Origin: a virus | Length of the DNA: 63,999 bases | Virus record (IMG/VR): IMGVR_UViG_3300030101_003107 | Coordinates: 1 to 63,999 of that record | Reading direction: 5' to 3' (one strand) | Shown: one piece after another, positions 9,386 through 48,988 of the stretch | Numbering within the stretch: the stretch's first letter is position 1 | How the letters are laid out: every line of letters starts with the position of its first letter | The notes under the pieces: generated by a model | Told to the model about the DNA's origin: nothing | What the model saw: the letters and a program-made list of their open reading frames with translations, nothing else | Database searches by the model: none | Position numbers and translations under genes: made by a program

Positions 9386-12300
9386 TTAATCGTGAGCGTA
9401 ACATCTTGTTTTAGGCTTGTTTACCATGTTTTTACATCTAGAACTATCACGCTTAATAAAGCTGCATTGATTTTTGTTTTGTTTTTTCTCTTTTTTCTTT
9501 TGCTCTTTTAGCTCATCTTTAGCTTCTTGCTGTGCTTGACGTTTTAAATCTAAGTATCTTACGTATTGATTTTCTTTACCTTTGTTTACAACTACACGCT
9601 CACCAACTTGTAAATCCCAAGCACTCCAACCTAGCGTTAAAAATGCTCTTTGCATTGCTGTGTTTTCTTGATTTAAAGCTTCTCTAATGTTGTCCGTTTT
9701 TCTAAATAACCTATCAAGCGGAACATTAGTAGCAGCTGTTGTAACTTTTGCTGTAGCATCCCAAATAGGATTATTATAATCGAACGTGTCCATGCTACCC
9801 ATTATCTCTCTATTAAATTTATAAGCATTTAATGCACTATAAACTTTTCTAGCTTTTGATCCCATAGGCGGCGAAACTTGCACAGCTTCAACTACTACTT
9901 GACCATAATCAGCCCTAGACTTTCTTTCAGACTCAGAAATAAATCTCATTATAGTGTTTTTAATAGTTGCAACTGCAGCGCCTGCTACACCAGAGCCTCT
10001 TAGTATTGTATCAAGCATACTATTTGCTATTCTTGTAGCTCTTTGGTCTAGCGCGTCGTCTTCTTCGTCGTCAAAGCTTAAAGCAAATATAGCTGATTGC
10101 AAGGCAGAGAATATAACATTTTGTATAGCGCCGTAATATAATATTCTTGACACGTTACTTCTCCAGTCTCCACGATTATTAATTAAATCTCTACTAGCTT
10201 TTTTAATTAAACGATTATATTGCATAGGTGTATTAGCGAAAGCTAATATAAGACGACCTAATGGACTAGCTTGCTGTTGTGATATACGATCAGGTCTAGC
10301 CGACTGCTGAGTTTCTTGAGCTATTTCTTGAAAATCTAAAAAAGCTTTTTCTTCTGCAGCTTTTTTATTCATACCTTGCTTCGTATATGTTTCAACTCTA
10401 TTTCTATAAAACGTAGATCCACCAGAAGCAATAGCAAAACTATCAGCTATTTGTGTAGGTAAAAAACCTTTTTTAAGCAAATACGCAAGCGCAGCTTTAG
10501 CTTTGTTCTGAGCGCCTGCTACAGCATTAGCAAGTTCAGCTTCATTTACATTTATTTGTAAACCTGCTCGTCTAGCTTTTAAAAAGTCGGAGTTAAATAA
10601 CGTTGAAAAGTCTGACCAATATTGTTTTTGATTAGCAAAAGCTTTACCAGCTTTAAATATATTGTTATCGTCAAAGTTTATAAAGTTAACTGTAGACAAA
10701 GTTTGTAGTACAGCTGATCTTGCGTTAAAGAACATTATAGCGCCAACAGATCCGTTAACCCAGTTTGTCCAAGCTTGGCCATAAGTTCTACCTGAAGATC
10801 TATTTGTACCGTTTTCCATACGATATAATGAATCTTCTAAAGCGCTTCTAAATCTAGAGCCATATATAGCTTCTATTTTATTCATATTTTCAGTAGAAAA
10901 TATAATATTTTTATTTTCTATAAACTCTGCTAAATATTGTTTTCTACCTATTTTGTTTACAATGTTTTCTAAGTCAGAAGCTATACTTTCTACACTCCAG
11001 TTTTCACTTGGCTCTATCCAACCTTTATCTCTTTTTGATACAATGCTTAAAGCATCTGCAAATGTTTTTAAGTCTTGATCTGTGTTAACAACGTTTTTTA
11101 AATAATTTAAATCTCTTTTAGATATACCTGGAACTTCAAAGCCTGCTTTATCAAATAAATAAACTCTTATAGCATTATCAAAAGTAAAACCAGTATCTTT
11201 TTCTATTAACTTACCTAATCTTTTTTTAACGTTAGGTATTTCTTTTCTAAGTAGTTTATAATCGTCTAATATACTCATACGAGCTTCACTCATTTCACGA
11301 TCAGCTCTACCAAACGGATCTAGTAAAGCTTTTTTCATAAACTCCATATCAGCATCACCTTGTTTGCCTTTGCCGTAAAAGTCATATAATAAGCCCGCAA
11401 AGTCTTCAGCTGACGGTGGTACAAAAAATCTATATCTACCTATGTTTTTACCACGCTTTTGACCAACAACTCTTGAAAATATTTTTTCAGCTGCAACACC
11501 TTTTGTTCGCTCGATCATTTTGTTAAACTCAGAGCTCATGTCTTTGCTAAAGTTTATTCTTGCTTGTACGGATTTACCTTTAACATCTAGCTGATCAAAT
11601 ACATGTTTAACAGCTTCTACATTAGGTAAAGCATCGTCTACAAAGTACATATCATTATATCCCTCTTGATATTTTTCTAAAAACCAAGCTGCTTTAGCAT
11701 CGCCTTCGCTTTTACCAAGTCCAGTTATATTTTTTAAAGGTATATTAATACCTTGGCTTTTTAACCACTTGTGTATAGGTTCAGCAGCTTCTTGCATACG
11801 AGCTGTTAAAACAAACACATTACTAGGACCATACTTTTTTATTTGGTTTTTCATCTTCTGAAGTAGTGGCCCTTCTTTACCTCCTCTTACGTTTGCAAAA
11901 TCAGAAAAGTCAAATTCATAACCATCAGCCGCTAACTTAGGTCCATCAATAGGCCATTTGTCAGAAGGTATTTTAACTGTTTCGCCATCTTTAGTTGCTG
12001 TAACAAAGTTTTCACCGTCTATAATTAACGTTTCGTCAAAGTCAAAAGTAGACATACCTTTTGAGTCTTTGCTATAAGCTAGCACAGGTCTAACGCTAGA
12101 TATGTTTTGACTAATGCTAGAGTTTTGTTTTATTTCAGCATTTGGCTTAATTTTGTTTCTAGTTTGTAAAAAAGTATCTAAGTTGTTTTTAGCTTGAGAA
12201 GCTGTAATATCTCCATTTAAAAACTGATACAAAAGATTTTGTTGAGTGCTAATAGTTGATGCATCGCTATGCAAGCTAACGTCAACGCCTAAACCAAACT

Positions 12301-15300
12301 CTTCTGCTATAGTTTCACCTCTAGCATTTATTAAGTAGTTAGGATTTATTCCACCATCGTTAGCGTTTACTAATGGATTAAAATATCTTATCCACTTAGA
12401 TTTTAATCCTAACAATATATCAAGATGATATTCTAGCGGCGGTGCTTGAACAAAATTAAACTTAACGCCATTAATTTCACCTTTAAGCTTTTTATCGTAA
12501 GATAAAGGCAAAGATCCTTGAGCATAGTTTTCAAAAGCGCCATCAATATACAACTCTAAGTTGCCTTGCAAAGCTCTATTAAATAAAAATTTAGCAAAGT
12601 CGCTAGCTGGTAAAGTGTGTTCTTCTACGTTTTTTTCATTAAGAGTATTAGTAAATTCTAATGTTGATATAACTCTAGCAAAATGACCCATGTTCTGAGA
12701 AGTAGAAGCAAACATAGTAGCAAAATAAGGTATAGTCTCAGGTTGAGCTTGCATTATCTCTTGTATTTTAAGCCATACCTTTTTAGCGCCTATTATTGAT
12801 GATTCGTGATACTCAGAGTCTTTTAGTTTTTCCGCAACCGTTTTACCAGTTGATTTGCCGTATTTACCTACCGATGAAACAGCTGCAGTTATATCTGGAT
12901 CAGAAGGGGCAAACTTAGCTCCTTCAACAGAGCTTAATAAATCTTGTTTACTTGTAAAAGCAAAGTTTCTTTTTCTACCATTAGCTCCAGCTCCAGCAAA
13001 AGTTCCTACAGTTAACATTTCTATTGGAAAGTTAGGTGCTATGGTATTTTTTACAAAGTCTCTATAATTTTGAAGATCTGCGTCGTTATTAACTATGTCT
13101 ATAGGTTGAACATCTTGAGTAGCGGCAGCAACAACGCTTTTCCAAGCTTTGTTTTCTTGTCGAAGCATTTTGTTTAAGTCTGTATCTTCTTTAGAAAACA
13201 TATAGTTTGCCATACCGTCAGATATGCTAGTTAGCTCTGGATTTTGTCTTCTTATTTCTTGATTAGTTATAACTTTACCAAGTAAATCTGCAAGTGCTAT
13301 AACTCTAGCCGATGTATTTCTATTACGTGTTGGCTTACCGTCTATAATATCTATAAGCTCTAATAACTCTGAGTCTTTAATGTTTGTTCTTTTGACCTGA
13401 GTGCGCAAACCTGCTTTAGTTTTAGCTCTAGAGTCTCTTTTATTATAAAGTGTCTCTAATACAGTCTTAGGCACTCCTGTTGCTTTACCTGATGAATCAA
13501 AGCCTTGCGGTAAAGCTTGTATTACTAAAGCGGCATTAGCTTTAAACCATCTTTGCGCTGAAGCTACTTCTGCGGCTGTAAGATTTGCTTTGCTCTTAAT
13601 TTTATCAGGTGATATACCTAACAATTTACCAATAGTATTTCTAGCGGCATTTGGCACGCTCTTAAAATTAGACAATGTAGAAAACTTAGTTTCTTGTTCG
13701 TTTACCTCTGTAGTAACTTCATTTTGTATGTTTAACCTATCAGCTAATACTATATCTTTAGTTTTTCTTTCTGGCTGTTGCTCTACAGTTTCTTCAGCCG
13801 CAACACCTCTAGCCTCTGTTACATCATCTGTAAACTCTTCGCCTAACACTCTACGTGAAGCCTCAATAGCTCTAGCAGGTAAAAACTTATTTATGTAAGC
13901 AGCTAATGGTACGCCTGACTCAGGATTATATTTTTGTATAAGATCAAATATACCTCTTTCACCAGTGTTTATTTCATCAGTTAATAATTGTCTATCAAAG
14001 TTAGGCGCTTCAGATCTTCTCTGCACAAGTCTATTTACTATAGGTGCAAACTGATCTATAATACTCATAGCACCACCTACACCTTGATCTTGGTATATTT
14101 GTTGTACTCTATCAGAGGCTTCTTTTGAAAACTGTTGAACATCACCTGGTTTTATATCAGTAGGTAGTATGTCACCTTTAATTCCTTTAGCAGCTGATTT
14201 AATTAAATCTTTGTTTATATTGCCTGACTCTACAGACTCTACATAGTCTCTAAAAAAGTTAAATACATCTTGATTAGTGTTAAACTTATATTCTAAACCA
14301 GTTGTATTTTTAGTAAATCGCTTGACAACATCTTTTAATCTACTAAATAAGTTATCGTTAAATTTAATATCACCATTTTGAACTGCTTCAGCTGCTAGTG
14401 TAAATACTTCTTCGCTTTTACCTTCAGCTTCTGTATATTGATCTAATCTTCTTTTAAAATCAGTACCTTCTATAGCTATATTGTTTTCATCAAAGCTTTC
14501 TAATAAAGCATCACCAAATGCTTTTCTTGCGGCTTGATTACCTTGCAAAGTAGCAAAAAGCAAAGCATGTCCAAACTCATGTGTAAGTGTAGTCATAACG
14601 CCGTCTCTTAGCTCAGACTCTTGATTTATAAATATTTCTAAACCACCTTTACCGTCTTGTCTTATAGCACCATATCTAGTAGACTCACCTTTTAATATTT
14701 CTTCTCTTTTTCTAAACTGTTCGCTTTGAGATCGTTTTTCTTTTCTTGCTTCTGCTATTTCTTCTTGTGTAGAACTAGGATCGTTTATTATTTCGTCCAT
14801 AGCTTGAATAGCACCTATATCAAACGAAGCTTGTTCATCGTCTCTTCTCCAGTTAACAAAGTCATTAGAATTACCTTTACGTATATCTACATTAACGCCT
14901 TGTTGTTTTAAAGCTTCGGCTTGCAGCGACACATTTTCAAATAACTTTTCTCTACGAGAGTTTTGAGCGCTTTCTATTAAGTTAAAGTTATCTTGATTAC
15001 GTTTATTTATTTTATCTAAAATTAACTCTTTGTCTTTATCAGTTTTAGCTCTTCTTAGTTTATTTTTTTGCTTGTGAATAGCATCTAAGTTTTGAGCATA
15101 AGTTTTAAGTTGAGAATTACTTAAAGAGTTAAAAGTTCTATATAAGCTTTTTTTATTAGCTACTTGCGCGTTGTTAAGATCTTTTATTTCCTCTTGTATT
15201 CCAGCTTTTTCAGACTCTTTAGCTGTTTCTAACTGTTTTACTTTAGCATCAATTTGCGTGGCTATATCAAATTGTATATTTTTAAACTGTTGTGGCGCTA

Positions 15301-16765
15301 AATAATTATATACTTGTTCTACTTCTTTTGGTTTTGTAGCAACACTAGTTACTGATGCAGCAGGACCACCTAGCAAAGCACCTATACCAGCATCATGTAT
15401 AACATTTGTAAAAAACTCTTTACCACCTATCTCGTCGTCAAATATAAACATATCTCCAAGCTGCTGCAAAGTTTTATTCGCTCCTTCTGTAGCACCTTCT
15501 GTTACAAAACCACCACCAAACTTTGAAATAGCGTTAGTAGTATAACTTCTAATATAGTCTGTAACAGCTTTTTCGCTAGCACCTACTCTTCTTAATCCTA
15601 CTACATCTCTAAATAATCTAGCTCCCAAATATTCTGTACCCCACTCAAACAAACCATCTGTACTACTAGTTAAATATAACTCTCCAATAGTAGCGTCTGG
15701 TCTTTCTTTTAAGTTTTGTTCAAAACTACTACCAGCTGCAGAAGTACCTAAAGCTATACTACCATACATTGGAAAACCAATTGCTAAAGCCAAAGAAGGT
15801 ATGTTAGATAAAGCTTGCTCAGAAGCTACTTTAGCAGCGTTAGGATAATCACCTTTTTTTATAAGATCAATATACGTCATGGTGTTGCCGTCTTCATCTC
15901 TAACGTTAGTCATGTGACTTCTTAGTTTAGCTGAAGTGTATTTTAGCTGTTCTGTAGGTATATCTGGATATGTTCTTTGTACAATCTCTAGTGGTAAACC
16001 TGTTGATTGAGCTATTAAAGGTTTTAAGCCATAATTGTTTACAAAATCAACCATACCAGCGGTTAAATCTAGTGTTACTGCTTTTACACCAGACAAATAA
16101 GGAATTAAAGCTTTAGGAATGTTTGAGTTTGCTGATAGTTTAATTTTTTCGGCTTCTGCTATAGCGTCTTGAAGATCATAACCTGTTTTTTTATAAATCT
16201 CTTTACGCTCGTTTAAATCTAGTTGTCTAGCTTCAAGATCTTTGCCAGCTTCAGCTGCTTTAAAAAAATTATCTCTAAGCGTATAATATTCGTCTAAAGT
16301 TTCTTGAGGAAAGTTTGCAGGAAGTTTTTTATTTTCATCTAATTGCAAAGCTATGTTTTGATTATAAAAACCATCAACAACATCTTTAGCATTATTTAAT
16401 TTTTCAGTGTATTCTTCTATTGTTTTGCTTAGCTCTCTTTGTTGAACTTCTAAAGGCACTATATCAACTTCAGGTAAAGTTACGCCTTTTATAGTATCGT
16501 CTTCTACTCTTGCTCCGGGCACAACGTCAAAACCTGAAGCTTGAACTTCTGCTATAGTTTCAGGATTATTTGTGTAAGTAGGAAACTCCGATAAAGATTT
16601 TGCCGAACTGGATGCCGTACTTTCTGGCTCCGCAGGGGCATCCACTTTCTGGGGAGCTTGTTCTTTTTTTGTTTCGACGTAGTTTGTAATAAAGCCTTTT
16701 ATTTCATCATCAGACTTTCCAGCATCGATTAGTTTTTGAATTTCTAATTCTAACTCTTCGTTCAT
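9386..16765 (-). CDS. Giant multidomain internal virion / polyvalent protein (2459 aa)
   Basis: Domains seen in order: an acidic N-terminus with a short repeat-like helix (residues 1-35); hydrophobic/Gly-rich segments (~215-260 and ~310-460) like those of phage ejection proteins; long charged coiled coils (~470-700); a zinc-metallopeptidase motif HEFGH (~residues 729-733); a short sigma-region-like/helical segment (~925-980, NPESGVPLAAYINKFLPARA); a HAD-type phosphatase domain (~1570-1740; FDFDETL, VLTAR, GDAKAAW, FVDDALPNVEAV); further helical regions; and a C-terminal Cys/His knuckle (CSFIKRDSSRC ... CYAHD, ~2434-2459). Such assemblies are known as large polyvalent proteins injected with phage DNA. 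It lies with two other ejection-type genes just after the hub gene. Co-injection into the host is inferred. Confidence 0.75.
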   Translation of the reverse strand: MNEELELEIQKLIDAGKSDDEIKGFITNYVETKKEQAPQKVDAPAEPESTASSSAKSLSEFPTYTNNPETIAEVQASGFDVVPGARVEDDTIKGVTLPEVDIVPLEVQQRELSKTIEEYTEKLNNAKDVVDGFYNQNIALQLDENKKLPANFPQETLDEYYTLRDNFFKAAEAGKDLEARQLDLNERKEIYKKTGYDLQDAIAEAEKIKLSANSNIPKALIPYLSGVKAVTLDLTAGMVDFVNNYGLKPLIAQSTGLPLEIVQRTYPDIPTEQLKYTSAKLRSHMTNVRDEDGNTMTYIDLIKKGDYPNAAKVASEQALSNIPSLALAIGFPMYGSIALGTSAAGSSFEQNLKERPDATIGELYLTSSTDGLFEWGTEYLGARLFRDVVGLRRVGASEKAVTDYIRSYTTNAISKFGGGFVTEGATEGANKTLQQLGDMFIFDDEIGGKEFFTNVIHDAGIGALLGGPAASVTSVATKPKEVEQVYNYLAPQQFKNIQFDIATQIDAKVKQLETAKESEKAGIQEEIKDLNNAQVANKKSLYRTFNSLSNSQLKTYAQNLDAIHKQKNKLRRAKTDKDKELILDKINKRNQDNFNLIESAQNSRREKLFENVSLQAEALKQQGVNVDIRKGNSNDFVNWRRDDEQASFDIGAIQAMDEIINDPSSTQEEIAEARKEKRSQSEQFRKREEILKGESTRYGAIRQDGKGGLEIFINQESELRDGVMTTLTHEFGHALLFATLQGNQAARKAFGDALLESFDENNIAIEGTDFKRRLDQYTEAEGKSEEVFTLAAEAVQNGDIKFNDNLFSRLKDVVKRFTKNTTGLEYKFNTNQDVFNFFRDYVESVESGNINKDLIKSAAKGIKGDILPTDIKPGDVQQFSKEASDRVQQIYQDQGVGGAMSIIDQFAPIVNRLVQRRSEAPNFDRQLLTDEINTGERGIFDLIQKYNPESGVPLAAYINKFLPARAIEASRRVLGEEFTDDVTEARGVAAEETVEQQPERKTKDIVLADRLNIQNEVTTEVNEQETKFSTLSNFKSVPNAARNTIGKLLGISPDKIKSKANLTAAEVASAQRWFKANAALVIQALPQGFDSSGKATGVPKTVLETLYNKRDSRAKTKAGLRTQVKRTNIKDSELLELIDIIDGKPTRNRNTSARVIALADLLGKVITNQEIRRQNPELTSISDGMANYMFSKEDTDLNKMLRQENKAWKSVVAAATQDVQPIDIVNNDADLQNYRDFVKNTIAPNFPIEMLTVGTFAGAGANGRKRNFAFTSKQDLLSSVEGAKFAPSDPDITAAVSSVGKYGKSTGKTVAEKLKDSEYHESSIIGAKKVWLKIQEIMQAQPETIPYFATMFASTSQNMGHFARVISTLEFTNTLNEKNVEEHTLPASDFAKFLFNRALQGNLELYIDGAFENYAQGSLPLSYDKKLKGEINGVKFNFVQAPPLEYHLDILLGLKSKWIRYFNPLVNANDGGINPNYLINARGETIAEEFGLGVDVSLHSDASTISTQQNLLYQFLNGDITASQAKNNLDTFLQTRNKIKPNAEIKQNSSISQNISSVRPVLAYSKDSKGMSTFDFDETLIIDGENFVTATKDGETVKIPSDKWPIDGPKLAADGYEFDFSDFANVRGGKEGPLLQKMKNQIKKYGPSNVFVLTARMQEAAEPIHKWLKSQGINIPLKNITGLGKSEGDAKAAWFLEKYQEGYNDMYFVDDALPNVEAVKHVFDQLDVKGKSVQARINFSKDMSSEFNKMIERTKGVAAEKIFSRVVGQKRGKNIGRYRFFVPPSAEDFAGLLYDFYGKGKQGDADMEFMKKALLDPFGRADREMSEARMSILDDYKLLRKEIPNVKKRLGKLIEKDTGFTFDNAIRVYLFDKAGFEVPGISKRDLNYLKNVVNTDQDLKTFADALSIVSKRDKGWIEPSENWSVESIASDLENIVNKIGRKQYLAEFIENKNIIFSTENMNKIEAIYGSRFRSALEDSLYRMENGTNRSSGRTYGQAWTNWVNGSVGAIMFFNARSAVLQTLSTVNFINFDDNNIFKAGKAFANQKQYWSDFSTLFNSDFLKARRAGLQINVNEAELANAVAGAQNKAKAALAYLLKKGFLPTQIADSFAIASGGSTFYRNRVETYTKQGMNKKAAEEKAFLDFQEIAQETQQSARPDRISQQQASPLGRLILAFANTPMQYNRLIKKASRDLINNRGDWRSNVSRILYYGAIQNVIFSALQSAIFALSFDDEEDDALDQRATRIANSMLDTILRGSGVAGAAVATIKNTIMRFISESERKSRADYGQVVVEAVQVSPPMGSKARKVYSALNAYKFNREIMGSMDTFDYNNPIWDATAKVTTAATNVPLDRLFRKTDNIREALNQENTAMQRAFLTLGWSAWDLQVGERVVVNKGKENQYVRYLDLKRQAQQEAKDELKEQKKKEKKQNKNQCSFIKRDSSRCKNMVNKPKTRCYAHD

Positions 16766-19161: not shown

Positions 19162-22100
19162 CTATTTGCTACTTTCAACAGCGTTTAGCGCTGCAGCAAA
19201 TAACTCAGATTTATTTTCAAAATCATTATTTCTCCAAACACATCTTGCATAGTAGCCTTTAACTCCAGAGTGTTCAACAGGATTTTGTGTTAATACAAGC
19301 AATATTGAGCTTATATCAACGTTATAATCATCTACAATAGGGCCTAATGCTTCAAATAGCTCAGGTGTAGATACATTTGTTGTTATTGACGTAGAATCAA
19401 AACTTACCACGCTTCCAAGATTTACAAATTGACCTACAGTTTCTGATGGAGGAATAACAGTTGGATTATCACCTACGGTAGTACGCATTACGCGCACGTT
19501 AACACCTTCTTGAATAACAGCCATGTTTATAATTCCTAAATCAAATGATATTGTAAAACCTAGGCTACCATCACTATTTTCTACAATGCTTGTTGGTATA
19601 CCTAAAGGAGCTATATATTTTTGAAAATCTTCACTGTCTGTAGATAAAGTATCACCTTGTTTATCGTCTATATTTACATGCATTAAATTATTATGCCATT
19701 TGTTTTCTTTATTCTTAAAGTTTATTGACATACCCTGCTCAAGATCTGTTGTAATTCTACTTATCCACCATCCATCTTTGTTTAAATTAGTAGATAACAC
19801 GCCGTCGTTATTGTTAGATATAATTCTAGCTTGAGTACCTTCATAGTTAGTATAAGTAAAGTCTTTTACAGTGCCAGGCATTTCGTTATAAACTAAAGCA
19901 ATTCTTGGCTCTTGACTACTAGGCTCTGATTGAAAATAACCTTCATAAAAGCCGTATTTAGCTACTACGTTGTCATGATGATAATGCTCGCTGCTAATAC
20001 TAAAATATTGATTTTTTAAACTATATCCTTGAGCATCTTTATAGTATGTTCTAAAAGAAGTCCAAGCGTTTAAGCTTTCGTCCCAAGCAATAGTCAAATA
20101 GCCAAAAATTTCATCTTCTATATCTGTAAGATCAAAGTTTCTACAAGATAAAAGATATTCGTTTTTATCAATATCATAACTTCCAAATATATAACTATTT
20201 TGATCTCTAGCGTCTGATAGTTGGTTTTTAAAATAAGAGTCCATACCTTGATCAGATATTATAGTCATACCATCTTTTGATAATCTTATAACAACACCAC
20301 GTTTGGCATCGGTAAAGTAAGATCTAAAACCATATTGAGCAAAAGACTCAGGATTATTTGATATACCATATTCACCGTCAAAAGCAACAGATTGACCTAA
20401 AACTTTATCAGTAGCTAATAAATCAGGATTACCATCAGCTTTAAATATTGCATCTTTTTGAGAAAGAACTTTTAAAACTTTATCTTCACAAAGAACTATT
20501 AAATCATTTGCTCTAGAGTATAGTTTTTGTATAAATCCGTGATCTGGATTAAATCTTTTAGTTATACCTAATGCTTCTATAAACTGATTAGTCTCGTTAA
20601 ATCCACTATAAGAATTATATATACCTGAAAATATTAAACCTTCACCAACCTTAATTTCAGCATAATCTTCATATATACTAGATGCCTTAACACCTTTTTG
20701 TATTCTAGCTCCATTAAAAGAGTTTTTAACAGTAGATATTTCTATACCGTTTCCAAAGCAGAAACAATTATAATAAGGTAAAGCTATAGGTGTAACTACA
20801 TCGTTTACTAAACTAAAGTTTGATAAATGCGTGTGTCTTTTTACAAGAATAGTATCACTATTAACAACGCTTTCTGCTACGGTAACGTATACGTGCTCTC
20901 CAACATTTAATCTTCCGCCTCTATGCTCTTGTATTTTTAAGACTAGTTGATCTGGATTAGCAGGAACAGTTATGGTTACAGGTTGACTTAAAGTTATTGT
21001 AGTATACAAAGCATCATTAATATTATGTCTACCAACATTAGTTGATACAGATGTTACTGTAATTGGAGTAAGATCAATATCGTCAAGAATACTAACCCCA
21101 CCATCGCCATCATTATCACTTGTATATAGTAGAGGAAAAGTAGTATCACCTACTTGAACAACGCTATTTAAACCTAAAGCGCCGCCTGGGCCTGGTATTA
21201 AAGCAGTATAATAATAAGCTTCTACCATACGACCAACTTTAATAAACTGTTCGTCAGTTTCATCGTCTAATACTATAGGATATGCTTGAGAAGCTTCATA
21301 ATATAAGTCTGTATCATAATTAGGTTTTGGCAATGTTTCAAATACACCTTGTGTTTTAGCTGTGTTCGGGCCAGGTAACGGGCCTACGTCATTGTTCACT
21401 ACTAATGGTCTATCAGTTTTTACATAAACAAAAAACTTACCTTCAAAAACGTTTGGATCATCGTCTAAAGCATCAATTAAAGCTTCAGGCACTTCATTTC
21501 TTATTCTTTGAACTTCATATTCAAGATTAAGATTGTCTGACTCATAGTTGTTTGTTACATTAGACAAATCAGGATCTGGTTGTCCAGATTTTCTATGAGC
21601 TCTTTTTTGTATTAGTATATCGCCTTCTTGAACTTTGTTTCTATGATCAGAACTAAATATTAAAACACTATTAGTTTTTTCTGTTAAGCTACTTGCTTGA
21701 GCTTCAACAGAAGCGTCATCTTCACCGTCAACATTTATAAAATGTCTAATTTCTTCTAATGGTAAAACATTATAATCTAAAGAAGTATCTTTAACAAAAA
21801 ATTTATATGACTTAGCCCAAGTTGGATGTGGGTTTTTAACTATTACAGATATTCTTTGTGTTTTTTTAGAGTCTTCTGGACTTACTTTTATAATAGCTTG
21901 TCTATTAGTTAAAACAGGTGTTTCTCTACCAAACTCATCTCTATAAACAATACCAACTTGATAAGATCTATAAGATTTAATAGACTCCTGTGGTACGCCA
22001 AAGTTAGGGTTTGTTCCAGCGAAAGCTTCTTCAAAAACTTCAATAGCTCCATCGTCTGAGCTAGCACCTATAATTATTGGGTTACCATCAGGTCCAAGTA

Positions 22101-25100
22101 TTTCATTTATTTCTTGATTAACATAGGTGTAAAGTCCTACTTCAAGATTAACTTTTATATCAGAAGAAGATATAATTTCGTTATTAAAATCAAGTACTGT
22201 TTCTACTAAGTTGTAGTCTTTTAAGTAATTACCATAAACAACTCTATTAGCAGTAACTTCTTGTGCTTTAGCTGATTTTGGCACAGAGTCAAAAGGTCTT
22301 AATATTTGATTAGGATCTATTGTTAAACCTAAAGTATTAGCATTAAAAGGATGTAAGCCTGTATAAGATCCGTTTGCTGGTAAATTATATTCACCATCTC
22401 TAAAATCATATTTTTTTACAGCATATATATTATTTGCTTCTTCACTTTTAACTACCAACTCTACAGCTTTTACATCATGTGGTAAATTTTTTGGTGTCCA
22501 GTCTATTAATCTTAAATCTTTTATTTCATTAATTAAAGATATGTAATAGTTTGGCCAATCTATTTTTTGATTTAAAGTTCTCCAAATAACTGTAGTAAAA
22601 GGCGCAAAGCCAGAGTATTCGTTGTCTTCGTATTGATACCTGTAAGAAAATCTTAACATAGCTTCTCGTAAAGACTTTTCATCAGCTAATCTGCCTGCGC
22701 TGCTACCTTCATATTGAGAAGCTAAACTAACAGACCAAACTTGAGGAAGAGGTGGACCATAAAATTTTGGATTACCTTGAGAGTCAACTAGCAAACCATC
22801 GCGGCCCCAATTTTGATTAGTAGTCCAATAAGGTGATCTTCTGCCTTTGTAATCTTTAGGTAACATTGCTGCGTTTTTAGTACTGTCACCTTCTCCAATA
22901 ATAATAGGGCCTTCATCGCCTGGTCTTACATACTTATTGCTTAAATCAACTCTTAACGATGGATCTAAAGGATCTTTAGCGTTGTTTTCATCTATTTGAA
23001 TAGTAATAATATATTGGCTAATAAAATGCTCTGTAGAGAAAAAACTTGGCGGTAAGTCTACTACTGTACCGTCATCTAATACTATTTCTTCTCCACCAGG
23101 ATCAGTGCCATCAATTATAGTTTGATCAACTAACCCATCATTTAAAAATATAAATTTATCTTTTAAATCAGTATAAACATTACCAAGGTTATCAGTGAAA
23201 CCTACATTGTTAGGAACACCATTTATAACTGCACCAGCTCCTGCTGGGCCTTCAGGCCGCATGTTTACATGCTCTATTTTTGTTATTGTAGCTTTTACTA
23301 AATCAGCAAACCCGTCGTGTCTTCTGCCTGCAAACCGTGTACTATTTAAAAAATTAGCTCCTAGTGGATTTGCAGGGCTATTGAAACTAAGCTCTTGAGT
23401 ATCTCCAAAGTCTTGCCCACCTTGATTGTCTATTGTCCAAAGATCTTCATCTACAAAACCTCCTGTTTCTTCTAAAACCGAAGCAGGTGTGAAAAAGCTA
23501 TTGTCGTCTTCATCTGTATAATAAACATCAGTATATCTACCAACTGCGTTACTTCTTCTAGTATTACCTTGACCTTCTAATACAATTTTGTCACCAACAC
23601 TAAATCCATGAGGTTGAACTACAAATCTTCCAGGCCCTGTAGGTCTATATAAATTATTTTCGTTTAAATCAATTCTACCATTATGCACAAAATCAGCCAT
23701 TGGACCATCGTCAGGATCTCCACCTAAACCCCAATATTCGCTAATAGCAGCTAAATTTTGCGAAGGGCCTGATATATTAGCTTGTGAAAAAAGACCACCT
23801 AAATGATAAGCTTTAGCTATACCGTGCTGATTTGCATAAATAGGTGGGGCAACATCACCATCAAGAAGATACCCTCCAGGCATTTGATTTGTGTAGTGTA
23901 TAACATCACCTTCTGATCCAGCGTTACCACCAAAAGAACTGCCAGGACTAAAAGATACTAGCACGTTTTCATTTACAGAGTTAGCACCTACACCTCTAGT
24001 ACCACCTGCGCCTGAATAATTTTCCCAATAAAACGGCTCTAACGCTTGATTAAAGACACCATCATCTTCAGTAATTCCTGAAGCCATACGCATTGGACCA
24101 ACTGGAATAATATGTCCATCAGTTGGATCATTAAAAAAACCAAAAAGTGGTCCAAGCTCTTGGTAAGAGTCCATACCAGCGTTTAAATAATTTTTAAACA
24201 ATGGGTAAGGCGCTGATGGTTGTGAGTTTGCTTGTACATTTTCAGCTATAGCAGTTGGAAAAACTAAAGACTCTATAGTATATCCGCGTGGATCGTCTTG
24301 ATTAAAAATGTTAGCTGGAACACCAAAAAATCCATTGCCAGCTCCCATTGGATCTAGCGCGCCAGTTCCTGGGGCAGCAGTACCGTAAATACTTCCTCTA
24401 GATGCTTTTACATAAGCGCCCCAAGATAAAGTGTCAGGAATATCAAGAGTCATGCTGTTTCTAAAGTCCATAGCTTGGTTGCCATTTACATCAGCATACG
24501 GAATAAAAGATCTGAAGTTATAATAAGTATCAGGGCCTAAGCCTACTAACGGCTCACCCAGTCCATCGTTAGTAATTAATCCACCGGCTTCGTTATAAAA
24601 ACCAGCTTCGTTTAAAAATGCAACTGCAAACTGTAATGTTTTACCACTTGCGTGGTTTGGATGTATAGGAAAAGGATGCGTCATAACACCTTTAGTTGGA
24701 CCAACTGTTTTAACGTCTGAGTCGCCAACCACAGCACCCACATCAGTTAACACTTTTAAATGCTCTTCTGGATTTGGTCTTATAACAGTACAGTGAGACT
24801 CTATAGTTCCACCTAGCCCTGTATTTATAGCATTGTTTGCTATAACAGCGTTATCGTGATACCCGTTAAACTGCCAACCAGGAACACCTTGAAAGCCTAA
24901 ATTGTTATCAGAGTTTTCTCTTAATAATCTAGTATGAAAAAGTCTTCTATCTGTAAGCCAGTCTGGATATACCGACTGTTGATCAGATAAAGTACCTACT
25001 TTAGATCTATTTATTTGTATTTTTTTAGGTTCGTTTTTATTATCTGTAAAAAATATTAAACCATCAAATACATTTATACCTGTTATATATCTTGAGTAAT

Positions 25101-26709
25101 CAAAATCTAATATTCTTTTAGATACAAAAGCAAAGAAAAAATTATCCTCATCAAGAGCTATGTCATCAGGAATAACTACATTATCTGCAAATCGATTAAA
25201 ATCATCTTTTATGTATACTCTGTAGTTAACTCTATCAACATAGTCAACATAAAAAGCATCTATTAAAGTATTTATACCAGCACCTTCAGTTAAAGAATTA
25301 GAAACAGCAAAATCAGTGCCTACTATTGTGTCATACTGAAGAATACGCATGTCCTCTCTAATGTCTAAGTCACGCATATTCAAACCATCGTCAGGAAGTT
25401 GTATGTATGTTCCTAATTCATTCATGGGCTGGCCTATGAAAACAGCTGGAGTTCTTATTTCATAAACATCGTTAAAAACTAAATCCATGTCTCCATGGCC
25501 ATTGTTTTCTTCTGATATTCGCTGCATAGCTCTATTAGGCTCATACTCGTATATAGCGTCAGCTCTAACAACAATGCCTCTAGCGCCAAAAGATTCTGGA
25601 TCAAGATCTTCTATAGCATCAATACCACCGCTAAAAAATTGTCGAGTATCTTCTCTAAATTGATCTATATGAGTAAAAGGATCGTGTTCACCCGTCAAAT
25701 TATCTGTTAAGTGATTCCATGTTCCAGGAATTGCAGTAATTAAAGCTTGATCTACAGTACCTCTATTAGGACCTGTTAACTCAATAAGATTACCATCTTC
25801 TCCAGCGGTAGGTTGAATTATTGTTACAGAGCTTCCGTCTAATTCAACGTTAACTCCTATGCTACTTAGAGCATTATAAAAGTTTGTTGCTTTTCCTTCT
25901 GCTGAAGCTGCTGAAGCTACATTTATAGTTACTAGCTCTCCTGCTTCATCAAAAATATGTCCATTAGGAAATGATATGTTAGTATAACTATAAGGAAAAA
26001 GCGGATTAGCTTGTGCTTCAGTTGTAAAAGCGCCATAAACAATAGTTATTTGACTAAAACCGCTAGATGTTGCGTTGTTTAACGTAAACCTCATTTGAGG
26101 ACATCCACCAATTGTTCCTGCGTCCCAAGGTCCTGAGCCATCAATTTGATAATCTGGATTACCTATTGCGGCTTCCCACCAGTTGCTGCTAAGTTGACTA
26201 CCAAAATCACTTGGACCTACTGGTCCTTCGTTTATCCAGCCAGGTTCGTTTGATTCAATATTTTCGTTATGTAATCCATATCTACGCGCAACTGCGTAAT
26301 CATAAAGAGGGCTTATGCCTACGTAATTATTAAAATTAATTGTAAATCTTGCTCTTTCACCAAAGCCTTCACCTTCTAGTCTAAAGGCATTAACATAAGC
26401 TGAGTCTTTAACGAAATGATAAGCATAATCATTTGTTCTATCTACAGCTGTACCTACTACTCTAGGTTGAGTAAAACCTACTCTTCTAGGGCCAAAAGTG
26501 TTTAGCTCTCCATCTCCTTGATGTCTCCATCTATCTTGAGCAATAACTTTAGTATTTGCTCTAACAGTTTCTAACGAACCTTCGTTTCCTTCTGAAGAAC
26601 TACTAACCCGTATGTTTATAGCTTCACGATATAAACCTTGACCTACTAGCCTCTCATCAAGGTCAAGATTCATTCCACCTTTAATAAAAGTTCTTTTTAA
26701 TTCAGCCAT
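19162..26709 (-). CDS. Giant tail hub/stabilization-like protein (2515 aa)
   Basis: 2515 aa. The N-terminus (KRTFIKGGMNLDLDERLVG, YREAINIRV) matches the start of podoviral gp10-type tail stabilization/hub proteins. The family's characteristic late elements also occur: FDGLIFFTDNKNEPKKIQI (~res 545-565), a block with KSYRSYQVGIVYRDEFGRET (~1570), and YGISNNPESFAQYGFRSYFT (~2105). P22 gp10 is under 500 aa, so this version carries very large insertions rich in Gly/Asn/Asp/Pro (residues ~150-450, ~600-1350). These may form an elaborate tail surface. It follows the ring/adaptor genes directly, which supports the assignment. Confidence 0.7.
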   Translation of the reverse strand: MAELKRTFIKGGMNLDLDERLVGQGLYREAINIRVSSSSEGNEGSLETVRANTKVIAQDRWRHQGDGELNTFGPRRVGFTQPRVVGTAVDRTNDYAYHFVKDSAYVNAFRLEGEGFGERARFTINFNNYVGISPLYDYAVARRYGLHNENIESNEPGWINEGPVGPSDFGSQLSSNWWEAAIGNPDYQIDGSGPWDAGTIGGCPQMRFTLNNATSSGFSQITIVYGAFTTEAQANPLFPYSYTNISFPNGHIFDEAGELVTINVASAASAEGKATNFYNALSSIGVNVELDGSSVTIIQPTAGEDGNLIELTGPNRGTVDQALITAIPGTWNHLTDNLTGEHDPFTHIDQFREDTRQFFSGGIDAIEDLDPESFGARGIVVRADAIYEYEPNRAMQRISEENNGHGDMDLVFNDVYEIRTPAVFIGQPMNELGTYIQLPDDGLNMRDLDIREDMRILQYDTIVGTDFAVSNSLTEGAGINTLIDAFYVDYVDRVNYRVYIKDDFNRFADNVVIPDDIALDEDNFFFAFVSKRILDFDYSRYITGINVFDGLIFFTDNKNEPKKIQINRSKVGTLSDQQSVYPDWLTDRRLFHTRLLRENSDNNLGFQGVPGWQFNGYHDNAVIANNAINTGLGGTIESHCTVIRPNPEEHLKVLTDVGAVVGDSDVKTVGPTKGVMTHPFPIHPNHASGKTLQFAVAFLNEAGFYNEAGGLITNDGLGEPLVGLGPDTYYNFRSFIPYADVNGNQAMDFRNSMTLDIPDTLSWGAYVKASRGSIYGTAAPGTGALDPMGAGNGFFGVPANIFNQDDPRGYTIESLVFPTAIAENVQANSQPSAPYPLFKNYLNAGMDSYQELGPLFGFFNDPTDGHIIPVGPMRMASGITEDDGVFNQALEPFYWENYSGAGGTRGVGANSVNENVLVSFSPGSSFGGNAGSEGDVIHYTNQMPGGYLLDGDVAPPIYANQHGIAKAYHLGGLFSQANISGPSQNLAAISEYWGLGGDPDDGPMADFVHNGRIDLNENNLYRPTGPGRFVVQPHGFSVGDKIVLEGQGNTRRSNAVGRYTDVYYTDEDDNSFFTPASVLEETGGFVDEDLWTIDNQGGQDFGDTQELSFNSPANPLGANFLNSTRFAGRRHDGFADLVKATITKIEHVNMRPEGPAGAGAVINGVPNNVGFTDNLGNVYTDLKDKFIFLNDGLVDQTIIDGTDPGGEEIVLDDGTVVDLPPSFFSTEHFISQYIITIQIDENNAKDPLDPSLRVDLSNKYVRPGDEGPIIIGEGDSTKNAAMLPKDYKGRRSPYWTTNQNWGRDGLLVDSQGNPKFYGPPLPQVWSVSLASQYEGSSAGRLADEKSLREAMLRFSYRYQYEDNEYSGFAPFTTVIWRTLNQKIDWPNYYISLINEIKDLRLIDWTPKNLPHDVKAVELVVKSEEANNIYAVKKYDFRDGEYNLPANGSYTGLHPFNANTLGLTIDPNQILRPFDSVPKSAKAQEVTANRVVYGNYLKDYNLVETVLDFNNEIISSSDIKVNLEVGLYTYVNQEINEILGPDGNPIIIGASSDDGAIEVFEEAFAGTNPNFGVPQESIKSYRSYQVGIVYRDEFGRETPVLTNRQAIIKVSPEDSKKTQRISVIVKNPHPTWAKSYKFFVKDTSLDYNVLPLEEIRHFINVDGEDDASVEAQASSLTEKTNSVLIFSSDHRNKVQEGDILIQKRAHRKSGQPDPDLSNVTNNYESDNLNLEYEVQRIRNEVPEALIDALDDDPNVFEGKFFVYVKTDRPLVVNNDVGPLPGPNTAKTQGVFETLPKPNYDTDLYYEASQAYPIVLDDETDEQFIKVGRMVEAYYYTALIPGPGGALGLNSVVQVGDTTFPLLYTSDNDGDGGVSILDDIDLTPITVTSVSTNVGRHNINDALYTTITLSQPVTITVPANPDQLVLKIQEHRGGRLNVGEHVYVTVAESVVNSDTILVKRHTHLSNFSLVNDVVTPIALPYYNCFCFGNGIEISTVKNSFNGARIQKGVKASSIYEDYAEIKVGEGLIFSGIYNSYSGFNETNQFIEALGITKRFNPDHGFIQKLYSRANDLIVLCEDKVLKVLSQKDAIFKADGNPDLLATDKVLGQSVAFDGEYGISNNPESFAQYGFRSYFTDAKRGVVIRLSKDGMTIISDQGMDSYFKNQLSDARDQNSYIFGSYDIDKNEYLLSCRNFDLTDIEDEIFGYLTIAWDESLNAWTSFRTYYKDAQGYSLKNQYFSISSEHYHHDNVVAKYGFYEGYFQSEPSSQEPRIALVYNEMPGTVKDFTYTNYEGTQARIISNNNDGVLSTNLNKDGWWISRITTDLEQGMSINFKNKENKWHNNLMHVNIDDKQGDTLSTDSEDFQKYIAPLGIPTSIVENSDGSLGFTISFDLGIINMAVIQEGVNVRVMRTTVGDNPTVIPPSETVGQFVNLGSVVSFDSTSITTNVSTPELFEALGPIVDDYNVDISSILLVLTQNPVEHSGVKGYYARCVWRNNDFENKSELFAAALNAVESSK

Positions 26710-42050: not shown

Positions 42051-42308
42051 TTAATCTACTAGTACAATATCACCTGCTTTGATAACAAAATAAAGCTTAC
42101 CTTCAAATTCTACTCCGTGACCAGCGTGTTTATCATACCAGACAACATCACCATCTTTTATAAATTCTATTAAATTACCAGTTGATATAACTTTACCTTT
42201 AGAATATCTAACGTCTTCGTCAGCATCTTCTTTAATAATTAAGCCAGCAACTTTCTTTTCTGTTTGTTTTATCTTATCGATAACTACATAATAATTAACT
42301 GCCTTCAT
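42051..42308 (-). CDS. groES: GroES-type co-chaperonin (cpn10)
   Basis: 85 aa, shorter than bacterial GroES (about 97). The N-terminal MKAVNYYVVIDKIKQTEKKV, the mobile-loop position with AGLIIKE, VISTG, KDGDVVWYDKHAGHGVEFEG and the closing AGDIVLVD strand all fit cpn10. It caps the GroEL ring and its ATG overlaps the groEL end (14 bp overlap), so the two are translationally linked. A 76-bp AT-rich gap follows it. Confidence 0.85.
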   Translation of the reverse strand: MKAVNYYVVIDKIKQTEKKVAGLIIKEDADEDVRYSKGKVISTGNLIEFIKDGDVVWYDKHAGHGVEFEGKLYFVIKAGDIVLVD

Positions 42309-43863
42309 TGATACGTATATTTGAAATTACACAATCAGCAGAAATTATTGTCGATGCTACTGAAGCAGCGTTAGTAAGTGCTGTTTTAGTAACAAGCACA
42401 GGGTCTATGATACCTTCAGATACCATGTCAACAGTTTTTCCAGTTACAACGTTAATGCCTTCACCTTCTTTAGTTGGTAAGTCTGTGTCTGTGGATATAC
42501 CTGCATTATCAAGTATTGTAGCCATAGGCGATATAATAGCGTTAGCTACCACTTGTTCACCGACCGTGTCGGTCGAAATTTTTTGAGATGCGTTAAAGAG
42601 GGCGATGCCGCCTCCTGGCACTATACCTTCTTTCAAAGCAGCTTTAACTGCGTACACAGCATCTTCAACACGATCTCTTTTTTCTTTTAACTCTACTTTA
42701 GAGTTAGCACCTACTTTAACTATAGCTACACTACCAGATAATATAGCAAGCCTGTCTTCTAGCTTCTTCTTCATAAAGCCGTTTTTCTCGTCAGCCACTA
42801 GCTTTGCAACATGATCAATACGTTCTTCTATATCTGAAGTTATCTCTTCTAACGTTATAACAGTATTTTTTTCATCAGTCTTAACAAATTCAGCTTCACC
42901 TAAATGTTCTGGAGTTATAGTATCAAGATCGTCGCCTAAGTCTTCATTAAATAATGTACAGCCAGTTAGTATGGCTACATCTTCACATGTGTCTTTTTTA
43001 GTAGGACCAAAACCAGGCAAGTCAATTATGTTAACTTTAATATTGCCTTTTACTTTGTTCATCATAAGCGCAGACTTAACTTGATCGGCTACTGGCGCTA
43101 TAATTAATAAAGATCTATTATTTTTAATAACATGCTCTAATACTTTTTGTATTTTACGTATGTTAGGTATTTCTGACATACACATTAATATTAGTGGATT
43201 ATCTAAATCACAGCATTGCTTGTCGGTATTAGTTACAAAGTTAGTGGAAATTAAGCCACAATCAAACTGAACACCGTCAACAGTCTCTACGTATGTTTCT
43301 TCTGTATCTGATGTTTCCATAAGTACAACACCGTCTTTACCTACAGTCTTATAAGCTTCTGCTATAATTCTACCTAGCTCTTGATCGTTATTACAGCTAA
43401 TACTAGCTACGTGATCTAACATATCATCATTAACTTCTATTTTAATAGAGTCAAGATATTTGATAATATTAGCTACAGCAGTGTCTATACCTTGCTTAAC
43501 ATCTCTAACATTATTAGTTTGTAATACTTTGTAGACTTCTTGAAGCAAGCTTTCAGCCAAGACGGTAGCCGTTGTGGTACCGTCACCCGCTTCCTTGACT
43601 GTTTTGCTTGCAGCTTCTTTAATGAGAGTGGCGCCAATGTTCTCTACGGGATCTAATAGTGTTACAGATTGCGCGACCGTAACACCATCTTTTGTGATCA
43701 CTGGCTTTCCTCGGCTATCTTCATAGATTACGCACTTGCCAGAAGCGCCGAGAGTTGATTTTACTGCCGATGCTAACTTATTAACACCAGCGATTATTCG
43801 GTTTTTGGCATTATCGCCAAAATTAAGCTCTTTTACGAGCTCACTCGGTAAATTATATTCCAT
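42295..43863 (-). CDS. groEL: GroEL-type chaperonin (cpn60)
   Basis: 522 aa, full-length HSP60 (bacterial forms ~545). Nucleotide-site motifs are intact: TLGASGKCVIYED, ITKDGVTVA (~residues 57-66), GDGTTTATVLAE (93-104) and GIVPGGGIAL (~415-424). The apical substrate-binding region is more divergent (VQFDCGLISTNFVTNTDKQC). The Gly-Gly-Met tail of host GroEL is missing (it ends NIRINEGS). It should fold phage (probably capsid) proteins. Close to the start of the late operon, it is made before the structural proteins. Complete phage-encoded GroEL-GroES pairs are rare. Confidence 0.9.
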   Translation of the reverse strand: MEYNLPSELVKELNFGDNAKNRIIAGVNKLASAVKSTLGASGKCVIYEDSRGKPVITKDGVTVAQSVTLLDPVENIGATLIKEAASKTVKEAGDGTTTATVLAESLLQEVYKVLQTNNVRDVKQGIDTAVANIIKYLDSIKIEVNDDMLDHVASISCNNDQELGRIIAEAYKTVGKDGVVLMETSDTEETYVETVDGVQFDCGLISTNFVTNTDKQCCDLDNPLILMCMSEIPNIRKIQKVLEHVIKNNRSLLIIAPVADQVKSALMMNKVKGNIKVNIIDLPGFGPTKKDTCEDVAILTGCTLFNEDLGDDLDTITPEHLGEAEFVKTDEKNTVITLEEITSDIEERIDHVAKLVADEKNGFMKKKLEDRLAILSGSVAIVKVGANSKVELKEKRDRVEDAVYAVKAALKEGIVPGGGIALFNASQKISTDTVGEQVVANAIISPMATILDNAGISTDTDLPTKEGEGINVVTGKTVDMVSEGIIDPVLVTKTALTNAASVASTIISADCVISNIRINEGS

Positions 43864-44220: not shown

Positions 44221-45114
44221 TTAAAATCTTGCTTTAGGCTTTTTAGGCGATTTAGGCGTTTTAGGCTTATTTACATTCATAGTAGGCTTTGGTGTTTTAG
44301 GAACCATACTACTGTGTGGCACTGCTGTTACAGTCTTACCGCTTAATGTAGCTTTAAGAACTTTGCCAGCTTCTTTTAAGTTTGCTAATGAAAAATATTT
44401 ATCTTTACCGTTTTTCATAGGAGTTTTCATTTTCATAGCTTCATCTTTCTTCATCTTCATAGCCTCACCTTTCTTCATTTTCATTGGCTTTTCTTTTAAC
44501 TTCATAGCCGGATCTTTTTTCATAGGCTTAGCAGATTTACCACCTTCACGACTGATAGGCGTTCTATAGTTAGTCTCAGGGTCCATCTCTACCTGATTAT
44601 ACTTTTTGCCTTCAAAAGGCTTGTAAGCCATGTCGTGACCTGGGTTTTTTCTGTTAAACTCATTTCTCTTTTTTATGTAATCTTTGTACGCAGTTGTTTT
44701 AGAGTATTTATAATGAGGCTTGCTAGTATCAAGTTCAGCAATAACCTTACTTTTTTTCTTTTTCCCTTCGTCATCTTTCATAGGAGTTTTCTCTTCTTTC
44801 ATCTTCATCGGCTCCTTCATCTTCATCGCTTTTTCTTCTTTCATCTTCATAGTAGACTTAAGCTTCATAGCTTTTTCTTTCATTTTGTCAGGAGAGCTGC
44901 CAGATTTAACAGAAGCTGTAGCAGACTTAATAGACTCTGTTGTATTGCCATCACCGTCTACATCTGGAAAGTCAGGCATAGCTTTTTTCTTCATTGCAGC
45001 TTCTTCTTTAAGCTTCATAGCTTTCTCTGCTTTCATTTTTTTAGCAGACTCAACTGCCATTTTCATAGGTTTAGTTCCGCCGATCATTGGGAACCCTTTC
45101 ATTTTAAATGCCAT
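44221..45114 (-). CDS. Lys/Met-rich low-complexity protein (MAFKMKGF tag)
   Basis: 297 aa, first gene of the late operon. It starts MAFKMKGFPMIGG and contains two blocks of M-K repeats (AMKLKEEAAMKKKA; PMKMKKGEAMKMKKDEAMKM), with a more ordered middle (~130-190, HYKYSKTTAYKDYIKKRNEF) and a Pro/Lys tail. Very high positive charge suggests polyanion (DNA) binding, as in protamine-like or virion DNA-condensing proteins. It is extremely Met-rich, which is odd. Its repeats produce long spurious open frames on the other strand. Confidence 0.65.
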   Translation of the reverse strand: MAFKMKGFPMIGGTKPMKMAVESAKKMKAEKAMKLKEEAAMKKKAMPDFPDVDGDGNTTESIKSATASVKSGSSPDKMKEKAMKLKSTMKMKEEKAMKMKEPMKMKEEKTPMKDDEGKKKKSKVIAELDTSKPHYKYSKTTAYKDYIKKRNEFNRKNPGHDMAYKPFEGKKYNQVEMDPETNYRTPISREGGKSAKPMKKDPAMKLKEKPMKMKKGEAMKMKKDEAMKMKTPMKNGKDKYFSLANLKEAGKVLKATLSGKTVTAVPHSSMVPKTPKPTMNVNKPKTPKSPKKPKARF

Positions 45115-45262: not shown

Positions 45263-45335
45263 ATTTTTATATGTGTAAAAGTTTTTGCGTTTTTACATTT
45301 TACATATTACTATACTATACTTTTTTACAGACTAG

Positions 45336-45357
45336 TTACGACATGTATTGGATAATA
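45336..45357 (+). promoter_or_regulatory. Early element copy 1 (divergent)
   Basis: TTACGACATGTATTGGATAA followed by TA: same layout as the other copies (TACGA, seven bases, TGGATAATA) but with a less conserved upstream part. It is followed by a T/A-rich leader to the first early ATG (45395). Confidence 0.6.
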
Positions 45358-45394
45358 TATATGTAAATAAAATATAAACTTAAACTAAATTATT

Positions 45395-48397: not shown

Positions 48398-48405
48398 TAC
48401 AAATT

Positions 48406-48429
48406 AAATACGATTACTATTGGATAATA
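48406..48429 (+). promoter_or_regulatory. Early element copy 5
   Basis: AAATACGATTACTAT then TGGATAATA. The centre ACTAT followed by GG-A is the closest match here to the T7-class TCACTATAGGG core (one base shorter). It drives the zinc-ribbon gene and the structured RNAs downstream. Confidence 0.7.
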
Positions 48430-48452: not shown

Positions 48453-48668
48453 ATGAATAAATATTGTAAATGTGGTGAGCCCGTACACCCAGTTAGACAA
48501 AAATACGGGTACAAAACATGTGTTAAATGTAGTAATGTAGAGCGTGTCGCATCGGCACCTATTACTAATCATAAAACAGGTAACACAATACAAATAGTAT
48601 CACAGGCAATGTCTGTTGCTATACACAAGGCGAGTAGGCGTAAAGGCTACGGTACTTGTCTTAGATAA
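48453..48668 (+). CDS. Small zinc-ribbon protein
   Basis: 71 aa from the ATG at 48453. CKCGEPVHPVRQKYGYKTCV followed by KC makes a CxC...CxxC zinc ribbon like small DksA/TraR-type proteins. The remainder is basic (SRRKGYGTCLR). It could bind RNA polymerase or RNA. It is directly upstream of the structured RNAs; the TAA stop is 48666-48668. Confidence 0.6.
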   Translation: MNKYCKCGEPVHPVRQKYGYKTCVKCSNVERVASAPITNHKTGNTIQIVSQAMSVAIHKASRRKGYGTCLR

Positions 48669-48671
48669 TAT

Positions 48672-48745
48672 ACGAGGAGTGAAGTTGGAAGTTAGCGCAT
48701 AAATCTGCAAGACAGTAGCCCACTAACTCAAACACTTCACCTCGT
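48672..48745 (+). ncRNA. Structured RNA element A
   Basis: ACGAG (48672-48676) pairs with CTCGT (48741-48745). After a two-base bulge, GTGAAGT (48679-48685) pairs with ACTTCAC (48734-48740). Inside, AGTTAG (48690-48695) pairs with CTAACT (48723-48728). A T run follows. It is not a standard tRNA (no T-loop). See element B for the covarying partner. Confidence 0.5.
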
Positions 48746-48752
48746 TTTATAT

Positions 48753-48841
48753 ACGAGCGTGGCGCGTGAGACGTGTTCAGTAAAATGGAACTAACAGGTG
48801 AGGCCCCAGCCTGACTGTTCTTACTCACTTGGCCACCTCGT
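48753..48841 (+). ncRNA. Structured RNA element B (paralogue of A)
   Basis: ACGAG pairs with CTCGT (48837-48841) as in element A; after a one-base bulge GTGGC pairs with GCCAC, a base-paired substitution of A's GTGAAGT/ACTTCAC. Inner stems are GTGAG/CTCAC (48766-48770, 48824-48828), GTTC/GAAC (48775-48778, 48788-48791), AACAG/CTGTT and AGGC/GCCT. A T run follows (TTTTA). The compensatory differences argue for selection on RNA structure. Confidence 0.5.
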
Positions 48842-48854
48842 TTTACAATTGACT

Positions 48855-48974
48855 GGTAGTGTTAGTCTCACGTAGCATCTATCGCGAGAAGCTAAAGACA
48901 TTGCTCGCAGGCTAGTCACCAAACAGCTAGGTATTGGCAATACAGGTTTGAGGTTCGATTCCTCACTAGCTACT
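48855..48974 (+). ncRNA. tRNA-like 3' half / multi-hairpin RNA
   Basis: A T-arm of perfect tRNA type (TGAGG-TTCGATT-CCTCA, 48949-48965), with CTAGCTA as acceptor-like strand, is preceded by an anticodon-like loop TTGGCAA (48934-48940) in a short GTA/TAC stem. A GCGAG/CTCGC hairpin and a CTAG/CTAG hairpin lie upstream. I could not fold a full cloverleaf: the D-arm and acceptor 5' strand do not fit. It may be a degenerate tRNA, an attachment-site remnant or part of the A/B RNA system. Confidence 0.35.
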
Positions 48975-48988
48975 AAAATTAAATAACT

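Follow-up and report, generated by a model that had tools for sequence, protein, structure and literature searches.

Downstream of a repeated promoter-like motif in a tailed phage lies an array of small structured RNAs in which stable scaffolds carry exchangeable modules, and the same scaffolds and modules recur in related phages. That these are modular RNAs maintained by selection we regard as nearly certain; for their function, we infer from the pattern of conservation and exchange a role against host factors, which is put forward more tentatively. The whole stretch of DNA analysed (the window) is a 63,999-bp IMG/VR virus record. Its genes for TerL, a portal protein, a GroEL-like chaperonin, an ATP-dependent DNA ligase, ERF, thymidylate synthase and ribonucleotide reductase identify it as a tailed phage, and because its closest named TerL relatives infect Flavobacterium, Cellulophaga, Tenacibaculum and Maribacter, its host probably belongs to the Bacteroidota. 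The phage-encoded GroEL-like chaperonin occupies 42295-43863 (- strand), and in the named relative MW202828 the annotation includes groEL as well as a chaperonin 10 kd subunit. Also on the - strand are a 297-aa protein rich in lysine-methionine repeats (MKMKEEKAMKMK; 44221-45114), for which a Pfam search returned no family, and two giant ORFs at 9386-16765 (2459 aa, without a Pfam family) and 19162-26709 (2515 aa).

The array sits among small genes. Six exact copies of the promoter-like motif are present where none is expected, and every one lies in the early region on the + strand; there is a diverged copy at about 45334-45358, and the motif is also found before genes in relatives. Immediately upstream of the array, in the window and in relatives, a 71-aa zinc-ribbon gene serves as a syntenic marker. 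Its product has no Pfam or PHROG family and no match in named phages; the small proteins adjoining the array likewise lack a Pfam or PHROG family. The features of the region are as follows.

45824, 46297, 46655, 48405, 49775 and 51267, + strand: copies of the promoter-like motif
48405..48429, + strand: exact match to the promoter-like motif TAAATACGA-N8-GGATAATA, 5' of the zinc-ribbon gene and the array
48453..48668, + strand: zinc-ribbon-like protein, CxCG/CxxC, 71 aa (tblastn in relatives, 39-97% identity)
48672..48745, + strand: unit A, capped-hairpin scaffold, ACGAG (48672-48676)-GA-GTGAAGT (48679-48685)...ACTTCAC (48734-48740)-CTCGT (48741-48745)TTTA
48686..48733, + strand: module M1, carried by unit A, present in other scaffolds and covarying
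48753..48841, + strand: unit B, branched scaffold, ACGAG (48753-48757)-C-GTGGC (48759-48763)...GCCAC (48832-48836)-CTCGT (48837-48841)TTTA
48764-48776 paired with 48819-48830, + strand: core of unit B (about 40 loci with B or F core; core and linker covary)
48780..48817, + strand: module M5, the arm 1 insert of unit B, with identical or near-identical copies in arm 1 of L094, L106 and L181 and in arm 2 of L124
48925..48975, + strand: unit C, minimal tRNA-like RNA, acceptor AGCTAG (48925-48930)/CTAGCT (48966-48971), short hairpin, T-arm TGAGG-TTCGATT-CCTCA (48949-48965), tail ACTA

The initial annotation had described two tandem structured RNAs in a 320-nt gene-free stretch. Its letters, stems and coordinates for both units are exact, and the stretch (48669-48988) is free of ORFs of at least 60 aa and matches neither a tRNA nor any Rfam family. 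Both RNAs are present, but they are not two copies of one RNA; they belong to a modular array that continues past them to a third, tRNA-like member, unit C. Since A and B are different scaffolds with only the outer stem and spacer in common, the compensatory changes read between them involve real stems but are not the best evidence for structure, which comes instead from covariation inside one class across phages. Folding of single sequences compared with shuffles gives modest support (z -2.42 for unit A, -2.26 for unit B, -2.77 for the pair), and the stretch between units B and C (48849-48915; z +0.26) shows no structural support.

About 100 related loci (L numbers) were gathered by scans with the DNA ligase and a 179-aa neighbour protein, and unit B or its core is present in some 40 of these uncultivated phage loci. 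Unit B lies at the syntenic site behind the 71-aa zinc-ribbon gene, with scaffold halves that are nearly invariant and inserts that are entirely different; its arm 1 inserts range from 14 to 104 nt without steps of three, indicating that they are not coding. Scaffold F is larger than B by one extra arm and shares with it the core GCGUGAGAYGUGU...UCUUACUCACUUGG. The recurring classes comprise the capped hairpin A, the branched scaffolds B and F, the tRNA-like C and E, the tmRNA-like T, and the hairpins D and G. Scaffold A is found again in L137 with a compensating second stem, and other ACGAR/YTCGT hairpins occur in L038, L095 and L097. A truncated F unit in L080 has an uninformative single-sequence fold (z +1.34). 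Among close relatives, units at the same site differ in presence, absence and identity, as expected of arms-race loci, and some arrays grow to many units (L141:8393-9282). Depending on the phage, unit B is followed by a 61-aa gene, the 179-aa gene, other genes, tRNA-Arg or another RNA unit. This freedom from any one downstream gene or constant gene class argues against a leader, riboswitch or cis-regulator, and with it against the regulatory role that had been suggested for the pair; nothing was found in favour of a packaging or priming RNA, which had also been proposed. A separate intergenic inverted repeat, GTGACA...TGTCAC with a conserved inner stretch (L023:3954-4411, L080:3222-3716, L106:2547-3207), is a possible replication or control element.

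The scaffold arms are tipped by discrete structured modules, about 15-55 nt long, which turn up again in other scaffolds, positions and phages and are in places nested within one another. At least 14 module families were each seen in two or more contexts. M1, the 48-nt insert of unit A, is carried by capped hairpins (window, L137), scaffold B (L083), scaffold F (L080, L141), tmRNA-like scaffolds (L139, L140, L036) and another frame (L067, L143). M3 occurs between 17 distinct flanks, and in one of these it is nested as an end loop in M9. Where an arm is "empty", it forms just a GNRA hairpin (ACACU-GUAA-AGUGA in L111); in L083 the stem of this empty arm bears M1 where the tetraloop would be.

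Selection on structure shows in the linker stems between insert and scaffold, which belong to neither. Among 36 units there are 25 distinct 5' four-base linker sequences, and 147 of 180 scored positions pair, compared with 73.3 when the 3' linkers were dealt out anew among units (0 of 20,000 permutations reached the observed value). M3 linkers covary too (3/20,000). For M1 with its linkers, 93.1% of cells are paired against 80.4% in shuffled data, with 22 both-side changes against 7.5 (0/500), and pairing collapses in slid controls; the M1 copy in L036 has three separate compensatory changes (A-U to G-C, G-C to C-G and G-C to A-U). The B/F core was aligned as two conserved halves joined by an artificial GAAA loop because its middle part is unalignable; core and linker are 94.7% paired against 73.1% shuffled, with 62 both-side changes against 19.8 (0/500), although the kinship among these phages means that such shuffle counts are not probabilities. 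The core helix GUGAG/CUCAC has the variants GCGAG/CUCGC and GUAAG/CUUAC. The bulk of the covariation signal stems from linkers that are nearly all different from one another, and within modules both paired and unpaired bases are conserved across scaffolds. Joining stems that differ nearly everywhere yet stay complementary indicate a fold under selection. Selected RNA structure, as the initial annotation claimed, is thus backed by covariation exceeding all 500 shuffles, and the recurrence of the units in relatives likewise bears out its suggestion of a new ncRNA family.

Searches of existing collections returned few counterparts. Rfam, at gathering and permissive thresholds, gave only true tRNAs and three tmRNA-like matches in the window and several relatives; the modules had no Rfam match, the GOLLD and ROOL covariance models were unmatched in the window and scanned relatives, and no type III antitoxin RNA in Rfam matched at any threshold tried, a search to which families outside Rfam could be invisible. 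Among 50,697 named phages there was no convincing match to the array: blastn with the window stretch gave four weak short matches (E 0.3-0.9) and the arrays of two relatives none. The M1 model, run with fast filters against 395 Bacteroidia genomes, returned one match (E 0.0095) in apparent coding sequence, as expected by chance given that number of genomes. The L141 array, run likewise against 295 Bacteroidia genomes, gave short matches in apparent coding sequence and promoter-like matches (best E 1.2e-5 apart from a phage-like contig), all judged chance or trivial; the one to a Cas9-type-like gene lies on the same strand as the RNA and is therefore not antisense. Scanning genome contigs with the 3' half of unit B produced three matches, with the full unit only in L134, a phage-like contig within a Sphingobacteriales MAG. 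Apart from that contig, no credible module was found beside defence genes or elsewhere in the 300-400 Bacteroidia genomes sampled. We found no description of modular RNA arrays of such design in the literature (open-licence papers).

We favour, at slightly short of an even chance, a decoy or inhibitor function in which stable scaffolds display exchangeable effector modules against host, perhaps defence, factors; a decoy was among the possible roles raised initially. The array would be co-transcribed with the neighbouring small genes, host RNase P and tRNase Z would process its tRNA-like members, with CCA addition, and the scaffolds would shield the RNAs from decay. Each module might then bind one host macromolecule, most likely a defence factor or a factor of RNA or translation metabolism, and so block or titrate it, with fast module swapping reflecting an arms race. 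Anti-defence is the favoured, putative target class because of the hypervariability, the presence/absence polymorphism, the location and the precedent of pseudo-ToxI (PMC3475682). Somewhat more tentatively, we propose a combinatorial RNA effector system, in which standard scaffolds draw on a shared module pool, each module neutralises a different host (defence) factor, and cassette-like recombination moves modules between phages.

The tRNA-like members raise an alternative. Unit C is the smallest member of class C, consisting of a 6-bp acceptor, a short hairpin and a canonical T-arm, GGTTCGATTCC; it has the T-arm and acceptor stem of a tRNA (RF00005) and lacks the cloverleaf with anticodon arm. 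The T-arm motif GGTTCGANTCC has a single occurrence in the window and none in shuffles (expected 0), and the fold of the unit has z -1.86. ARAGORN made no call on it, and the Rfam tRNA model had no match in the window. Relatives carry homologous class C elements with longer inserts and AACTAG/CTAGTT variants. A simple script listed 97 T-arm-bearing candidates across the loci; with true tRNAs, two bacterial-contig matches and poorly paired entries set aside, tRNA-like elements span about 49-230 nt. Their acceptor stems covary (AGUAUGA/UCAUACU versus AGCACGA/UCGUGCU; AGCUAG/CUAGCU versus AACUAG/CUAGUU), and their ACTA/ACAA tail is that of true tRNA genes of these phages. The Rfam tmRNA model (RF00023) matches three elements well above threshold, through the tRNA-like domain and with the tag skipped. 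These miniature tmRNA-like genes, which lack the tag reading frame, are at the following positions.

L065:6023-6104
L075:6215-6296
L067:969-1049

They are 81-82 nt long with the middle of the model skipped (in L075, 12 nt replace 304 positions), and the tag reading frame and pseudoknot domain of tmRNA are absent from them. The window itself, which holds only the more reduced C element, is unmatched by this model. G3.U70 and A73 mark alanine acceptors. The three elements and related T-class members carry G3.U70, except L062, and nearly all have A73; classes C and E lack G3.U70. Scaffold E combines a tRNA-like acceptor (GCCCAAG/CTTGGGC) with inner strands that are conserved, AAUCUAUGGUAAUGUGGGAA and AACAAAAAUAGAGCCUUG, has two points of insertion and could be a large structured RNA in its own right. 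It was located as follows.

L082:about 5075-5285
L124 from 2599, reverse strand
L141:9022-9217

The tRNA- and tmRNA-like members might be charged with an amino acid, or be ligands of EF-Tu, SmpB or the ribosome, and target stalled or host ribosomes; they could, for instance, jam trans-translation or sequester AlaRS, with modules tuning the effect. The tmRNA matches, the alanine identity elements in most T-class members, the sheer number of tRNA-like elements and the true tRNAs that occupy the same places in relatives all speak for such translation-directed RNAs. We nonetheless consider this unlikely, as the same modules are carried by scaffolds A, B and F, which have no tRNA features, and C and E lack G3.U70.

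Slightly less likely still, the units could serve processing or stability between cistrons, as strong hairpins and tRNA-like structures of a generic kind through which polycistronic phage mRNAs are cut and protected. They do lie between genes of one apparent operon, and RNase P and tRNase Z would cut the tRNA-like ones, but generic hairpins have no need of conserved 40-50-nt modules in many frames, and some arrays are many units long. That unpaired module nucleotides are conserved from scaffold to scaffold also speaks against generic stabilising hairpins. Selfish mobile hairpins, akin to palindromic or double-hairpin elements and able to recombine with, and insert into, one another, would account for nesting, presence/absence polymorphism and swapping. 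They are improbable here, since covarying, non-identical linkers argue against hairpins landing in a fixed frame, and neither the conservation of paired and unpaired module bases nor the preserved T-arms is expected of neutral insertions. Antisense small RNAs that pair with host RNAs through variable loops are just as improbable, for while hypervariable ends on stable scaffolds resemble sRNA design, the modules keep complex sequence with internal loops, identical over a long stretch from phage to phage, in place of short seed loops.

To our knowledge, research on phage counter-defence and host takeover has dealt almost solely with proteins. If the decoy or inhibitor function holds, a modular, recombining RNA arsenal on tRNA- and tmRNA-like scaffolds would represent a phage effector of a new kind, open up numerous RNA-protein interactions and give the tRNA-scaffold trick used in RNA engineering a natural forerunner. 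As pull-down probes, the recurring modules make the question of their partners directly testable.

Several known systems invite comparison. Like tmRNA, T-class elements possess an acceptor stem with G3.U70 and A73, a stemless D-loop, a P2 stem and a T-arm; unlike it, they are about 82 nt long, have no tag reading frame or pseudoknot domain, and end P2 in an exchangeable module. Array elements share the T-arm, acceptor stem and ACTA/ACAA tail with tRNA but have no normal D-arm or anticodon arm. GOLLD and ROOL are structured RNAs of phages and prophages found near tRNAs, with conserved and variable parts (PMC12286853); they are single large cage-forming RNAs, which the array does not match in Rfam. 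Pseudo-ToxI of phage PhiTE, a noncoding RNA that mimics the type III antitoxin ToxI and suppresses host defence, changes through recombination and repeat expansion (PMC3475682). The array resembles it as a phage-encoded noncoding RNA changing by recombination, a kinship of presumed role only, since pseudo-ToxI consists of identical pseudoknot repeats of one kind, without a scaffold and with a known toxin partner, whereas the array combines many unrelated modules. TIGR arrays also consist of phage RNA units in tandem, each with constant and variable parts (PMC12045711). No Tas gene was noticed among the neighbours of the array, and the variable parts of TIGR arrays are unique guide spacers, whereas those of the array are structured modules common to several phages.
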